A DNA stretch of 10,369 nt, taken from Candidatus Krumholzibacteriota bacterium (GTDB lineage: Bacteria > Krumholzibacteriota > Krumholzibacteriia > Krumholzibacteriales > Krumholzibacteriaceae). The DNA lies in contig JAFGCX010000028.1 in the NCBI GenBank assembly GCA_016932415.1, forward strand, positions 1 to 10,369, read 5' to 3'. Below, piece by piece: positions 4,392 through 10,113 of this stretch. The position numbers were made by a program, and so were the translations under genes. The notes below the pieces were generated by a model. It was not told where the DNA came from. It searched no databases and saw only the letters and a program-made list of their open reading frames with translations. Numbering within the stretch: position 1 is the stretch's first letter; every line of letters begins with the position of its first letter.

Positions 4392-5606
4392 ATGCGTTAT
4401 AATCTACGTCTGGTCTCCACGGGAAACAGGGAAACGCTTGGCCGTCGTCTGGCCAATGCCGGCGTGACATCGAGCGGCATAGAGATAATGGCCGACAAGA
4501 CGCAAGTATTCGCCCTGCGCGTCGATGGCGTCAGGGCCGAAGCGGCCAATATCATAAAACAGCAACTCCTGTCGATCGGCGGCGATGCTGCCGTCCACCG
4601 GGACGTCATCTCGGGAAGACCCGAATCTTCGACGGTCTACCTGATCGCCGATCCGGCGAGATTCATAAGATTCGCTGACAAACTGGAAGGACAGCCTTTC
4701 AGTCTGGACGAACTTGGCGAGGAAGTAAGACGCCTTGTCGCTCTGAAAAAATCTCCCCCCCGGCAGATCCGCATCCCTTCCGGTACTATCGATCTTCTCA
4801 ACGGACCTGTCATCATGGGAGTCCTCAATCTGACCCCCGACAGTTTCAGCGACGGAGGGTTATATACAGATCCGGAAGCCGCCATGGAGAGGGCTTTGAT
4901 GATGATCGAAGAAGGAGCGTCGATCATCGATATAGGCGGAGAGTCTACCCGGCCCGGGGCCACTGAACTCGACCCTTCGGAGGAACTATCCAGGGTGATC
5001 CCGGTCCTCCGGAGGATTTCGAAGAAGGTATCCGTGCCGATATCGGTCGATACCCGGAAAGCCTCCGTGGCCGAGGCGGCGATGGACGCCGGCGCGTCTA
5101 TAATAAACGATATAAGCGCCCTGCGGCATGACGGGGAAATGATCCGGTTAGCTGTACGGACCCGGGCAGCAGTCGTCGCGATGCATATGCGCGGGACTCC
5201 GGCGACGATGCAGAACAAACCCGAGTATTCCGATCCCGTTCAAGAAATAATAAGGTATCTCGACGAAAGGACGGGAGACCTCATATCTGCCGGGATCGAA
5301 AAAGAAAAAATAATCATTGACCCGGGAATAGGTTTCGGGAAAAGATTGGAAGACAATCTCGATATCATCGATCAGGCCGGTGATTTTCATACTCTGGGAT
5401 TTCCTGTTCTCATAGGATATTCGAGAAAATCGTTTTTAGGGGCGATCACGGGACAGCCGGAAAATAAAAGGATCGAAGGAGGATTGGCCGTTCTGGGCAA
5501 ATCTCTCGCTGCCGGCATACAGATCATCAGGACACACGATGTGAGGGAGACAACAGATTTCATCAGGGTATGGAAAGCTATCACTCGGAAGGATGACGCA
5601 AGTTGA
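4392..5606 (+). CDS. folP: dihydropteroate synthase with N-terminal extension
   Basis: FolP condenses p-aminobenzoate with 6-hydroxymethyl-7,8-dihydropterin pyrophosphate to give dihydropteroate in folate synthesis; it is the sulfonamide target. The TIM-barrel domain spans about 138-400 and carries all classic motifs. These are NLTPDSFSDGG (146-156), DIGGESTRPGA (180-190), SVDTRK (218-223), IND (238-240), HMRG (265-268), DPGIGFGK (310-317), GYSRKSF (342-348) and RTHD (380-383). The protein is 404 residues against about 270-300 for stand-alone enzymes, because some 130 residues precede the barrel. That region includes AANIIKQQLLSIGGDAAVHR (51-70) and resembles extensions I recall from other long bacterial FolP proteins. 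Its role is unknown to me. The gene begins 9 nt after the ftsH stop, and its stop overlaps the cdaA start, implying co-transcription and coupled translation. Confidence 0.95.
   Translation: MRYNLRLVSTGNRETLGRRLANAGVTSSGIEIMADKTQVFALRVDGVRAEAANIIKQQLLSIGGDAAVHRDVISGRPESSTVYLIADPARFIRFADKLEGQPFSLDELGEEVRRLVALKKSPPRQIRIPSGTIDLLNGPVIMGVLNLTPDSFSDGGLYTDPEAAMERALMMIEEGASIIDIGGESTRPGATELDPSEELSRVIPVLRRISKKVSVPISVDTRKASVAEAAMDAGASIINDISALRHDGEMIRLAVRTRAAVVAMHMRGTPATMQNKPEYSDPVQEIIRYLDERTGDLISAGIEKEKIIIDPGIGFGKRLEDNLDIIDQAGDFHTLGFPVLIGYSRKSFLGAITGQPENKRIEGGLAVLGKSLAAGIQIIRTHDVRETTDFIRVWKAITRKDDAS
5587..5593 (+). promoter_or_regulatory. ribosome-binding site fixing the cdaA TTG start
   Basis: GGAAGGA is a strong Shine-Dalgarno sequence, with 9 nt between its end and the TTG at 5603. 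It lies in the last codons of folP. The ATG at 5593 that overlaps it is out of frame with cdaA. This supports a TTG start whose last two bases belong to the folP TGA stop (TTGA overlap). Confidence 0.7.
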
Positions 5607-6379
5607 ACCCGTTTCATTTCAACCTGACAATAGACGTTCTTGATATTATCATAGTCGCGTTCCTGTTCTACAGGCTCTTTCTTCTGTTCAGGGGATCGAG
5701 GGCGACACAGATGTTCATTGGCCTCTTTCTGCTCATAATCCTCTCCTTTGTCGCCCAGTGGCTGAACCTGAACGCCCTGAACTGGATATTAAGCAGCCTG
5801 AAGACAGTATGGGTGATCGCATTTGTCATCCTATTCCAACCGGAACTCAGAAAAGCCCTTACGCAACTCGGACAAAACCGTATCCTTGGAATATTTTTCA
5901 GAGTCGAGGAGTCCGGCACGGTCAGCGAGATCGTAAAGGCCTGCAGCCAGCTCACCCAGAAAGGACTTGGAGCGATAATCGTCATGGAACAGGATGTGGG
6001 TCTGAGGAACTATATTGAAACGGGGACAGCCCTCGATTCGAGGGTCTCAGCGGAGCTGCTCGTAACAGTATTCACTCCGCCCGGTCCACTCCATGACGGA
6101 GCTGTCATCATCGAGAAGAACCGCATAGTGGCCGCGGGATGCATTCTCCCACTCTCGCAGAATCCCCGACTGACCAAATCCCTTGGAACAAGGCATAGAG
6201 CCGGCCTGGGTCTTTCCGAAGAGACCGACGCGATCACTATCATTGTCAGCGAAGAGACGAGCATGATATCTATCGCGAGAGGCGGCAAGCTCAAGCGCAA
6301 ACTGGACATTAACGCTCTTCGCAACGAGCTGGTCGAAAAGATCAGCGTCAAACAGAAAGAACCTCTCACCGAGTCATGA
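5603..6379 (+). CDS. cdaA: membrane diadenylate cyclase CdaA/DacA
   Basis: This enzyme makes cyclic di-AMP from two ATP; in known bacteria the messenger controls potassium and osmolyte transport and cell-wall homeostasis. The 258 residues match the CdaA class. Three hydrophobic segments lie at about 10-29, 36-53 and 61-79, followed by FQPELRKAL and a cytoplasmic DAC (DisA_N) domain. Catalytic signatures are the LHDGA motif (D165, G166, A167) and the GTRHRA motif (R197, H198, R199). SEETDAITIIVSEET and ISIARGGKL complete the domain, so the enzyme looks active. It starts at a TTG overlapping the folP stop. In many bacteria the next genes are cdaR (YbbR-domain regulator) and glmM. Here the operon ends, and convergent signalling genes follow after 390 bp, so any CdaR partner would be encoded elsewhere. 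Confidence 0.95.
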   Translation: MNPFHFNLTIDVLDIIIVAFLFYRLFLLFRGSRATQMFIGLFLLIILSFVAQWLNLNALNWILSSLKTVWVIAFVILFQPELRKALTQLGQNRILGIFFRVEESGTVSEIVKACSQLTQKGLGAIIVMEQDVGLRNYIETGTALDSRVSAELLVTVFTPPGPLHDGAVIIEKNRIVAAGCILPLSQNPRLTKSLGTRHRAGLGLSEETDAITIIVSEETSMISIARGGKLKRKLDINALRNELVEKISVKQKEPLTES

Positions 6380-6769: not shown

Positions 6770-8308
6770 TTACTCTTTTATGATCCCTTTCTCGTAAAGT
6801 CTGACAAGGTTTTCGACAATATTCTGATCAAACTTGTGGCTCTGCTTCCTGAGCTGCTTGAAAGCCTCGGGGAAGCTGAACGCTTCCCGATAGGGCCGGG
6901 TAGTAGTCATCGCGTCGAAGCTGTCCGCTACTGCGACTATCCTGGCTCCGGTCGATATCTCATCCCCCTTCAGTCCGTCAGGATAGCCTTTTCCATCGAG
7001 ACGCTCGTGATGATGTCTGACGAGGTCTGTGGCAGATTCAAGAAATTTCAGATTCTTGATTATATTGGCGCCGACTTCCGGATGGCTTCTTACAATAAGC
7101 CATTCTTTTTCAGTAAGTTCTCCGGGTTTGTTGAGAATATTCTCATAGACGCCGAGTTTTCCGATATCATGAAGAGCGGCTCCAAAGCTGACGATATCCT
7201 TCTGTTCCTTGTCCATCCCCATCTCGTCGGCGATAAGGCGCGCGTACCTGGCAACCCTGTCTGTATGCCCCCTCGTATACGAATCTTTCGCCTCGATCGT
7301 CGAGACAAGGACCTTGATCGTCGAGAGGTAGGTATTCTGAAGTTCAGTAAAAAGTCTTGAATTCTGTAGCCCTGTAGTAGCCGAATTGCAGATCGATTTG
7401 AATATCTCAAAATCAGCGTTGGTGTACTGCTGTTTGTTTATTTTTCCTCCAATGAAGAATATGCCGATAAGCTGATTCTTTATGATCAGAGGGAAACAAT
7501 ATTCAAATCCGAGGTCCTTCATGAACACCGCTTCAAGTGCGGCGTCTTCGGGAAGTCCCTCCGCCTTTAGCTGTAAGACATCGGGGTTATCCGTCATGTA
7601 CTTCGCCAGCCCGGTCCCCCTGAAAAGCCTTACCGTTTTCAGGACGCCGTCACGCACTCTCTTGCCACCCGCGAAAGCGAGGAAATTGTCAGACTCGTTC
7701 TCCACGTGGAAGAGGCTTAACGATTCGACTCCAAGTTGACCAATGATCGTCAGGAAAAAAACATGGTAAAGTTCCTCAGGATCCTGGAGCCTGTTAAGAT
7801 CCTGGCTCAGATCGAAGAGAGTGCGCATATCGAGGATTATTTTCTTAAGTTTCCTGTTTACCCGTTTATAATCCTCCTGCCCTTTCTGAAGCTCGTCTTC
7901 GAGGATCTCCTTCTGCTCCCTGAGGTTTTTTCTTCCATCCGCCTGTTCTAGGAAGTTGCCGATTTTCGCCAGCACTTCCTGTACTGAAAAAGGTTTCTTG
8001 ATATAATCCTGGGCCCCTGATTTGAATCCTTCCAGCATCGTTTCTGAAATCGAGTTGCCCGAAATCATTATCACGGGGACATCACTGTGGACGTCCCTCG
8101 CCCTTATCTCGTCGCAAACGGTGAATCCGTCCTTGCGCGGAAGATTCACATCAAGGATTACCAGGTCAGGATGATAGCGGTCGTATTTCATCAGAGCCTC
8201 ATCGCCATCATGGGCAGAACGAGTGACATACCCTTCATTGTTGAGGGTCTCTGAAATGATCTCGACGACATTGGGATCATCGTCGACAACGAGAATACTT
8301 TTACTCAA
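6770..8308 (-). CDS. response regulator REC-GAF-HD-GYP, c-di-GMP phosphodiesterase
   Basis: This predicted two-component output protein should hydrolyse cyclic di-GMP. The 512 residues begin with a receiver domain (1-120) with acidic DDD (9-11), phosphoacceptor D53 in ILDVNLPRKDG and the conserved lysine K105 in KKPF. A charged coiled coil (about 122-160) and a GAF-like domain (about 165-320) follow. The HD-GYP domain (about 325-512) has H348 in RGHTDRV, the HD pair H380-D381 in ALHDIGK, HPE (409-411), HHERLDGKGYP (433-443) and D462 in VADSFDAM. All family metal ligands appear present, so activity is expected. Translation starts at TTG 8308: an in-frame TAG lies two codons upstream, and AAAGGA ends 10 nt before the start, overlapping the previous gene's stop. 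The GAF and HD-GYP parts are paralogous to the upstream gene, 14 nt away. The cognate kinase is not in the window. Confidence 0.92.
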   Translation of the reverse strand: MSKSILVVDDDPNVVEIISETLNNEGYVTRSAHDGDEALMKYDRYHPDLVILDVNLPRKDGFTVCDEIRARDVHSDVPVIMISGNSISETMLEGFKSGAQDYIKKPFSVQEVLAKIGNFLEQADGRKNLREQKEILEDELQKGQEDYKRVNRKLKKIILDMRTLFDLSQDLNRLQDPEELYHVFFLTIIGQLGVESLSLFHVENESDNFLAFAGGKRVRDGVLKTVRLFRGTGLAKYMTDNPDVLQLKAEGLPEDAALEAVFMKDLGFEYCFPLIIKNQLIGIFFIGGKINKQQYTNADFEIFKSICNSATTGLQNSRLFTELQNTYLSTIKVLVSTIEAKDSYTRGHTDRVARYARLIADEMGMDKEQKDIVSFGAALHDIGKLGVYENILNKPGELTEKEWLIVRSHPEVGANIIKNLKFLESATDLVRHHHERLDGKGYPDGLKGDEISTGARIVAVADSFDAMTTTRPYREAFSFPEAFKQLRKQSHKFDQNIVENLVRLYEKGIIKE

Positions 8309-8322
8309 GACCTATACATCCT

Positions 8323-10113
8323 TTAGCTGACTATAGACGCGGGTTTGACGGATCGGGCGATCTCTTTACCCATTATCTTCACGAATCGCTTCACTATCTC
8401 CCTGTCGTAGCGCAACCCATAGTTTTCTTTCAGAGTCTGAAGCGCTTCCTTCTCGGATAACGCGGGTCTGTTCGGCCGTTCGTGGATCATGGCCGAGTAA
8501 CTTTCAACCACGGAGATGATTCTGGCGCCGAGCGGGATCTCTTTCCCTCTCAGACCTCTTGGGTACCCTTCTCCATTGAACCGTTCGTGATGGCTTGTCA
8601 CTATATCGACAACGTGATCGTTGAATTTCATCCTTCTCAGCATATCGGCACCGTCTTCGGGATGCCGGTTTATCACATTCCACTCTTCACGGGTCAATTC
8701 CCTGGGGCTTCTTACTATCAGTTCACTCACCTTTATCATCCCCATATCCCTGAGAACGGTCCCGTAGATCAAATCGTTGAAATGCTCCTCAGGGTAGCCG
8801 ATATCCTTGGCCACCATACCAACATACCTTGATACAAATTCCGATGTTCCCTTGAGAAGAGTGTTCTCCTCTATCAGAGAGATGAGAGTCTTGACGATAC
8901 CGAGGGTGCGTTCATGTTCGCGTTCATACATAGTAGCATTCTCAAACGCTCCCTGAGCGATGTTTATAAGGATCTTCATGAACTCAAAATCTTCCTCCTG
9001 CATCCCGCGACCGGTTATCCGCTTGCCCAGGAAGATGAGTCCGGCGATCCTGTTCTCCACTATAAAGGGGTAAAAATATTCAAGCCCCGCGCCTTTAAGA
9101 AACCGGCATATCTCATCGTTGAAAGAATCTGAATCAATCACTATCAGATCGTTATTTCCCGTGATCCTTTTAGTCTCCGGGTTAGAAAGATTGAAAGCCT
9201 TTAAAGCTTTTTCCCCCACCCCCTTAAACATCACCGGCGCAAAGAGATTACCTGATTTCTCAAAGAATACCGCCGATTCGACGCCTCCCTGCGCGATCGA
9301 CGTCAAGAGAAAGATATCCATCAATCTTCTCTTATCCCTTATCGAGTTAAAATCGGTGCTTATAGAGAATAAAGTTTTAAGTTCGAGTATAGTCCTCTTG
9401 AGTTTTCTGGTGAGACCGTTCGCGTCGAGACACCCGTCGCTACCGGTATTTTCCATCCTGTTGAAAGGTGAAACTGGATCATCGATCCAGTCGGGTGGAG
9501 AATCTTTCCTTTCACTCTCGAATATCTCCGAAAGGATGTTGCCGTCCCCGTCTTCTATTTCAGGCTCAGCCTGTGTATCACCGTCATAAGGCATCATTAT
9601 CACGGTCGAAGACCCCGAAGCATTTTCCCCCGAAGATTCCATCTCCATGCCAGGTTCGACAGTCGATCCTGGAACCGAATCATCATCTTCATCGCTCTGT
9701 GGAGGCTGGTCGACCTCTTCTTCTCCGGCGCCGCCCTGATCCTCCATATAGGAATGTCCCGGGGCAGCGCTCATCGCGCTATCGAACGTATCGTAAACAT
9801 CGATCTGAACATCATCATCCCTTAAAAAATCCAGAATAACATCGTTTGTTATGACAAACTTTACTTTTCCGCCAAGTTCATTTACCGTATTGATAAATTT
9901 CCTGAAGATCCTGGCTACACCACCACCCAGGGAAGAGAGCTCCGAAAAATCAAAGATGATCTTCTTATATTCTCTTTTCAGACATTCATCGAGAAGATGC
10001 TCGACTTTGCTGTTTTCATGAAATCCCAGTTTCCCGGAGATCCTGAACGCAGCAGTATCGGAGATCTGCGTCTCTATCCTCTCGAATTGTGTTTTTTTCA
10101 TCGATCCGTTCAT
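8323..10113 (-). CDS. STAS-GAF-degenerate HD-GYP signalling protein
   Basis: This 596-residue protein has an N-terminal STAS-like domain (about 8-116) of the SpoIIAA anti-sigma-antagonist type. A Ser/Glu/Asp-rich, probably disordered linker (about 118-225) follows, then a short coiled coil (about 232-250), a GAF-like domain (about 250-395) and an HD-GYP domain (about 400-585). The last three match the neighbouring response regulator. The HD-GYP catalytic set is broken: the first His is Thr (T423), HD is R455-D456, the motif lysine is Met (M459), and the late Asp of VADSFDAM is Glu (E538). HPE (484-486) and HHERFNGEGYP (508-518) remain. It is therefore probably an inactive phosphodiesterase serving as binder or regulator, though this is inference. 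In the STAS motif (55-67) the usual phosphorylated Ser is Gly64. The ATG at 10113 has AGGA about 10 nt upstream; an internal ATG at codon 5 is an alternative. The HTH gene ends 12 nt upstream. Confidence 0.88.
   Translation of the reverse strand: MNGSMKKTQFERIETQISDTAAFRISGKLGFHENSKVEHLLDECLKREYKKIIFDFSELSSLGGGVARIFRKFINTVNELGGKVKFVITNDVILDFLRDDDVQIDVYDTFDSAMSAAPGHSYMEDQGGAGEEEVDQPPQSDEDDDSVPGSTVEPGMEMESSGENASGSSTVIMMPYDGDTQAEPEIEDGDGNILSEIFESERKDSPPDWIDDPVSPFNRMENTGSDGCLDANGLTRKLKRTILELKTLFSISTDFNSIRDKRRLMDIFLLTSIAQGGVESAVFFEKSGNLFAPVMFKGVGEKALKAFNLSNPETKRITGNNDLIVIDSDSFNDEICRFLKGAGLEYFYPFIVENRIAGLIFLGKRITGRGMQEEDFEFMKILINIAQGAFENATMYEREHERTLGIVKTLISLIEENTLLKGTSEFVSRYVGMVAKDIGYPEEHFNDLIYGTVLRDMGMIKVSELIVRSPRELTREEWNVINRHPEDGADMLRRMKFNDHVVDIVTSHHERFNGEGYPRGLRGKEIPLGARIISVVESYSAMIHERPNRPALSEKEALQTLKENYGLRYDREIVKRFVKIMGKEIARSVKPASIVS

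Follow-up and report, generated by a model that had tools for sequence, protein, structure and literature searches.

A STAS-GAF protein of the Krumholzibacteriota with a conserved, degenerate HD-GYP domain, possibly retained as a ligand-binding receptor

The locus and its two HD-GYP proteins

The window referred to throughout is the whole stretch of DNA that was analysed, i.e. the 10,369 nucleotides of contig JAFGCX010000028.1 (C28; assembly GCA_016932415.1, Candidatus Krumholzibacteriota bacterium). It encodes two adjacent proteins with an HD-GYP domain, here called A and B, whose open reading frames lie on the same strand with 14 bases between them (Table 1). A gene for an excisionase-like DNA-binding protein is found upstream of A. 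A further gene in the window, cdaA (5603-6379), encodes a c-di-AMP synthase with a DAC domain and is convergent with the B-A genes in most relatives.

Table 1. Features of the window, with positions counted from its first letter.
Feature	Position	Strand	Basis
HTH_17 (excisionase-like) DNA-binding protein, upstream of A, reaching the contig edge	10129..10368	minus	Pfam HTH_17, 8.3e-14
Protein A, STAS-linker-GAF-degenerate HD-GYP, 596 aa	8323..10113	minus	Open reading frame; low end includes the stop codon
STAS domain of A, aa 8-118	9760..10092	minus	Pfam STAS, 7.8e-8
Acidic linker of A, about aa 120-228	9430..9756	minus	pLDDT about 30-50; fast-evolving
GAF domain of A, aa 237-385, then a long helix to HD-GYP	8959..9405	minus	AF2 model and PmGH match
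Degenerate HD-GYP domain of A, aa 395-588	8350..8931	minus	Pfam HD_5, 2.9e-33; motif table
T423 at the place of the first metal His (PmGH H189)	8845..8847	minus	Read from the DNA
R455-D456-M457-G458-M459 for H-D-I-G-K	8737..8751	minus	Read from the DNA; DNA pattern
H508-H509-E510..N513: HHE kept, D of DG.GYP replaced by N	8575..8592	minus	Read from the DNA
E537 for the late metal Asp (PmGH D305)	8503..8505	minus	Read from the DNA
Protein B, REC-GAF-HD-GYP, 512 aa, all HD-GYP motifs intact	6770..8308	minus	Open reading frame; low end includes the stop codon
Intact HD-GYP domain of B, aa 318-508	6785..7357	minus	Pfam; motif table

In protein A, Pfam recognizes the STAS domain and the HD-GYP domain (HD_5/HD), the HD_5 match reaching 115.4 bits against a curated cut-off of 27.2. 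The GAF domain has no Pfam match and becomes visible in the AF2 model (mean pLDDT 77.6, with a disordered linker) and in the structural matches of that model. When the model is compared to PmGH, the HD-GYP phosphodiesterase of Persephonella marina, 334 residues can be superimposed (A residues 237-583; Z 23.4, rmsd 4.4), and the same GAF-HD-GYP arrangement is found. The original prediction had assigned positions 8323-9114 to the degenerate domain; this span contains the HD-GYP domain, together with part of the GAF domain.

The STAS fold is confirmed by Z-scores of about 15-16 to structures of SpoIIAA-like anti-sigma-factor antagonists. STAS domains are interaction modules, and the phosphorylation loop of the anti-sigma-factor antagonists usually reads D-S-S-G. 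The corresponding loop of A is SLGGG, without a phosphorylatable Ser or Thr, and the LGGG loop is conserved in most orthologues.

Protein B combines a Response_reg domain with HD_5/HD according to Pfam. Its HD-GYP motifs are H348, H380-D381-I382-G383-K384, H409, H433-H434-E435, D438-G.GYP, D462 and D465; the neighbour is thus intact at every position, just as predicted. In 30 B orthologues the matching positions are likewise intact, save for an N in place of the D of DG.GYP in two of them and the absence of the second Arg contact in one. In the MAG G045 (L072) an in-frame TAG divides B into two open reading frames, which is either an assembly error or a real break.

Active-site residues of A compared to PmGH

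In PmGH the metals are bound through E185, H189, H221, D222, H250, H276, H277 and D305; D183 and K225 make up the putative catalytic pair, and the site is supported by D308 (PMC4159591). Substitution of the metal ligands by Ala essentially abolishes the activity, except at E185 and D305, where it is strongly reduced; the Ala variants of D183, K225 and D308 show a similar impact (PMC4159591). The position of E185 is normally a Tyr or Phe in one half of the HD-GYP family (PMC4159591), and B carries a Tyr there.

In A, the positions occupied by H, H-D, K, D, D and D in intact HD-GYPs have become T423, R455-D456, M459, N513, E537 and S540. The exchanges at the first His, at the HD pair and at the IGK motif (MGM, 457-459) had been predicted from the sequence and are real, as read from the DNA, whereas the Glu replacing the late Asp is indeed present but is residue 537 rather than 538. 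Three more losses were found: the catalytic Asp before the first His (equivalent to D183), which has disappeared by a one-residue deletion, the D to N513 exchange, and the replacement of the D308 equivalent by S540. The HHE and G.GYP elements have survived as claimed; the loop is nonetheless not fully canonical, with N513 at the place of the Asp. H484, G514, G516, Y517 and P518 were also read from the DNA.

The ligand set of active phosphodiesterases, H...HD...H...HH...D, is not found in A, where the first His, the His of HD and the late Asp are T, R and E, respectively. Four of the eight PmGH metal ligands are retained (D222, H250, H276 and H277, as D456, H484, H508 and H509), E537 is a conservative swap for D305, and the equivalents of E185, H189, H221, D183, K225 and D308 are lost, the Met at 459 standing for K225. 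Because the equivalents of H189, H221, D183, K225 and D308 are missing, A should not act as a normal phosphodiesterase, and we infer from these residues that it very probably does not hydrolyse c-di-GMP.

The proposal that the catalytic metals have been lost goes too far, however. Judged by its ligands, the H-site appears destroyed along with the K225/D183 pair and D308, but the remaining His/Asp set could hold a metal and may accommodate a single ion. In the PmGH crystal with unhydrolysed c-di-GMP, only the G-site iron is present (PMC4159591). The residues of PmGH that contact c-di-GMP, Y285, R314 and K317, align with Y517, R546 and R549 of A.

Conservation and selection

Orthologues of A were collected from 58 related genomes and further regions. 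The resulting set comprises 36 sequences that cover the HD-GYP domain and belong to families f1, f2, f3, f6 and f7 of our numbering. Thirteen positions are invariant in all 36: R455, D456, G458, M459, H484, H508, E510, N513, G514, G516, P518, E537 and R549. At position 423, T, S, N, A and R occur but no H, and D is absent from position 540. All six Arg codons are used for R455. The equivalents of the ligand contacts are nearly as constant, Y517 being found in 35 of 36 sequences, R546 (the guanine-contact Arg) in 32 and R549 in 36. Since the substitution set is fixed in 36 orthologues, it is not a matter of chance.

A search with the pattern RD.GM...HHE..NG.GYP at the DNA level gave matches in 34 of the 80 genomes of the phylum and none with the reversed control. 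A scan of genome contigs returned one relative, L008, from a Candidatus Krumholzibacteriota MAG, with 71% identity. Among plasmid records, 559 had matches at the level of the HD-GYP domain, none of which spanned 80% of A. No A was found in the f4 genomes by the orthologue searches. On this sequence evidence, the same losses are retained across most families of the phylum.

The dN/dS ratio amounts to 0.03-0.12 for the HD-GYP domain of A, versus 0.04-0.24 for that of B and 0.23-0.67 for the linker of A (pairwise Nei-Gojobori estimates on part of the same-genus pairs, excluding those with saturated dS or broken frames). The HD-GYP domain is the most constrained part of A and the linker has the highest ratio. 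Judged by these ratios and the fixed positions, A is certainly under selection, as had been anticipated for a domain kept without phosphodiesterase function. The check proposed at the outset, whether the positions vary randomly among orthologues as in a decaying gene, was carried out and the positions proved to be fixed.

A faster-evolving variant in family f5

When an f5 homologue was used as query, an A homologue was detected in most f5 genomes. In an alignment of 30 homologous sequences, one of which is the f6 protein of genome G039, position 455 is R in 29 and position 537 is E in 24. H484, H508, H509 and E510 are kept in all 30, and HP is also invariant. M459 has mostly become L, Y517 has become F in 23 of the 30 sequences and the R314 equivalent is lost. 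The genus g38 of this family (G054, G059, G060 and G061; L141, L142, L144 and L145) has RN for RD and Q for E537, with an invariant HHE.

The Arg and the three His are, in the aligned sequences, held in f5 even where the guanine contact is gone. As HHE and HP are kept while the guanine-contact Arg is lost, recognition of c-di-GMP cannot be the sole selected feature, at least in this family.

Origin of the degenerate domain

A maximum-likelihood tree was built from 46 HD-GYP domains. A branch of length 0.73 with 100/99 support has all A sequences and the f5 homologues on one side. The tree is unrooted, the other side holding all B sequences and six other HD-GYPs, and some of the f5 rows are long. 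This branch rules out that A is a recent duplicate of its neighbour B. As A, including f5, stands apart from all B and from the other HD-GYPs, the split predates the families, and the simplest reading of the tree is a single origin of the degenerate A before these diverged.

The genome also encodes GGDEF, PilZ and other HD-GYP proteins. On contig C11, two tandem HD-GYP proteins of about 1000 aa (L075:7596-13773) are degenerate in another way (HDVGM and YDLGM), close to a short GGDEF match (C11:40958). In the tree, this pair groups away from A.

The operon and its partners

In relatives from f1, f2 and f7, the gene order is nitrilase-like, MCP-like (protein F5), CheA-like (protein F1), HTH_17, A and B, and the B-A genes face cdaA-folP-ftsH-hpt-tilS in convergent orientation. 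Of these, cdaA was checked by Pfam, and the nitrilase-like, folP, ftsH, hpt and tilS genes were named by eye. Several f5 genomes with otherwise different neighbours retain the HTH gene in front of A.

The MCP-like protein (L151:4481-6547) has an N-terminal hydrophobic membrane anchor and is encoded upstream of the CheA-like gene. Its profile matches MCP structures (6e-14) and Pfam MCPsignal is found in 7 of 11 members; the signalling domain is weak. The profile of the CheA-like protein (G000:C16:98577-100238, with its relatives in the alignment) matches the P5/CheW region of CheA (1.8e-12), and Pfam CheW is found in 10 of 12 members. Compared to the two true CheAs of the same genome, the phospho-His of the HPt domain (H of HTLKGS) has been replaced by S, N, R, K or T, and in the alignment with these two the N, G1 and G2 ATP boxes (RNAIDH, DDGRG and GRGVGM) are absent. 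Lacking both the phospho-His and the ATP boxes, it looks like a pseudokinase. Members of this protein in f7, f6 and f3 carry a C-terminal REC domain.

In the present genome, the MCP-like and CheA-like genes are situated at the end of contig C16, the latter ending 165 bases from the edge, while the contig of the window ends in the HTH gene. In relatives the HTH gene follows the CheA-like gene. This fits a join of the two contigs, C16 and C28, which are probably neighbours.

In f1, f2, f3 and f7, and in G039 of f6, A and B stand side by side. At E <= 1e-60, B orthologues are present in f1, f2, f3, f7, f8 and one f6 genome, and none was found in any f5 genome. With a laxer search of eleven genomes, f5 yielded only matches at the level of the HD-GYP domain and no full-length relative of B. 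In G028, G032 and G035, three of the four f6 genomes, the sole match across the GAF-HD-GYP core in that search was A itself. As A persists without B in f5 and most of f6, control of B is not the common denominator.

Comparison to known degenerate HD-GYP proteins

The closest precedent is DvhD from Desulfovibrio vulgaris (PDB 9rbz and 9rc0), which has SQ for HD and binds c-di-GMP without metal and without hydrolysis, whereby the helices of its stalk are spread (PMC13090378). DvhD resembles A in the loss of the HD motif and the retention of the GYP loop, is matched by sequence and superimposes on the A model with a Z-score of 19.4; in both proteins catalytic metal ligands have been lost on a conserved fold. 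However, DvhD is a membrane-bound PAS-HD-GYP receptor with M-N instead of HH, whereas A is a STAS-GAF-HD-GYP protein with RD that keeps HH and the third His and lies beside chemosensory-like genes. Having lost the double His that A keeps, DvhD is not an exact model for A. PmGH (PDB 4mcw, 4mdz and 4me4; PMC4159591) shares the GAF-helix-HD-GYP arrangement with A, but has the complete set of eight metal ligands and phosphodiesterase activity.

NosR from Burkholderia (NCBIfam NF053512) is a degenerate HD-GYP with HG-GTP in a REC-HD-GYP architecture, unlike A; the paper on NosR refers to studies in which proteins of this degenerate kind act on genuine c-di-GMP enzymes (PMC12570481). A was rejected as a member of the NosR family, with 126 bits against a model cut-off of 400. 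Bd1817 from Bdellovibrio (PDB 3tm8) is, like A, an inactive protein of the HD-GYP fold with an altered late Asp. It differs in having a di-iron centre and no GYP Tyr, whereas in A the Tyr is still there and the His of HD is gone. The best PDB sequence match to A is V-cGAP3 (PDB 5z7c), in which an active HD-GYP and a second HD region, where the HHE of A aligns with LDE, share one chain. A and B are separate genes.

In view of DvhD, NosR and Bd1817, a dead HD-GYP serving as receptor or regulator is already a known kind. The novelty of A lies in its combination of STAS with GAF, in a metal site that is half kept beside the fixed R/M/N/E set, in its retention across the phylum and in an operon of pseudo-chemosensory character. 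No published description of the architecture or operon of A was found in the literature searched, in which coverage of subscription journals was thin.

Proposed role of A

The reading put forward here, at about even chances given what the sequences offer, is that A is a phosphodiesterase-dead HD-GYP kept as a ligand-binding receptor or switch in a sensory complex. The GAF-HD-GYP core would probably still bind a cyclic dinucleotide, most likely c-di-GMP, and may hold one metal ion via D456, H484, H508 and H509, with E537 as a conservative fifth ligand. R455 would sit where the missing H-site metal once had one of its ligands. Binding of the ligand without hydrolysis is proposed to reorient the dimer stalk formed by GAF and HD-GYP, and the signal might then pass via the STAS domain, which has no canonical phosphoacceptor, to other products of the operon. 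The MCP-like receptor and the CheA-like pseudokinase would be its recipients, together with the HTH protein and, in genomes that have it, the active phosphodiesterase B. Sensing of c-di-GMP by A is plausible in the light of the conserved contacts. The unhydrolysed c-di-GMP in PmGH with its G-site iron alone, the precedent of DvhD, and the GGDEF, PilZ and other HD-GYP proteins of the genome also speak for the receptor reading.

Somewhat improbable, though ahead of the other alternatives, is that A is a ligand-independent scaffold, a pseudo-HD-GYP with perhaps a structural metal that serves only for dimerization or for docking of the MCP-like, CheA-like and HTH partners. The variant of f5 fits such a role: there the guanine-contact Arg has been lost and GYP has turned into GFP, while the three His and the Glu of HHE stay in every sequence. 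So do the STAS domain, as an interaction module whose conserved LGGG loop has no phosphoacceptor, and the CheA-like partner, itself apparently a pseudoenzyme. Yet outside f5 hardly any variation is seen at Y517, R546 and R549, which is more than a pure scaffold needs. For this reason the receptor is favoured over the ligand-free scaffold.

The adjacency of A and B in four families and G039, and the GAF-HD-GYP core that they have in common, would suit a dedicated regulator of the active neighbour, acting for instance through heterodimers of the GAF domains or stalks, and the work cited in the NosR report (PMC12570481) provides a precedent. Since A is kept without a full-length B in f5 and in G028, G032 and G035, this is an unlikely general role, although it may still hold in f1, f2 and f7. 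The predicted control of an active sister, taken as the conserved function, is not supported. Where both proteins occur, they may engage in cross-talk.

It is more doubtful still that A has gained a new catalytic activity, in which R455 and E537 would join the three His and the Asp in a modified site with one metal, working as a hydrolase or lyase. The replacing residues do not vary, as is typical of a functional site, and one-metal enzymes of the HD superfamily are known (PMC8177086). However, it is precisely the quartet of classical mononuclear HD enzymes (H, HD, D) that is disrupted in A, and no acid/base pair is evident in place of D183/K225; such a gain is thus very unlikely. A decaying pseudogene or an artefact of assembly, as the joint loss of several canonical motifs might suggest, can practically be dismissed, as the frame is open, the same losses recur in dozens of independently assembled genomes and the 36 orthologues with their fixed set and low dN/dS rule out random decay.

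Returning to the receptor, a wider picture can be drawn, tentatively and with doubt as to the whole. The operon might encode a sensory complex of retired enzymes, in which the MCP-like receptor, the CheA-like pseudokinase and the STAS-GAF-pseudo-HD-GYP protein, with a fixed Arg for a lost metal ion, convey conformational or messenger signals to the HTH regulator without phosphotransfer. Such a complex would have been set up once, before the families split.

Degenerate HD-GYPs are usually noted gene by gene, while here one fixed set (R, M, N, E) extends across most families. A therefore offers a clean experiment of nature, in which the HD-GYP residues needed for binding or shape can be told from those needed for catalysis. 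If A binds c-di-GMP, a chemosensory-linked class of receptors would be added to the solved DvhD. If it does not, the fold itself would be worth keeping.
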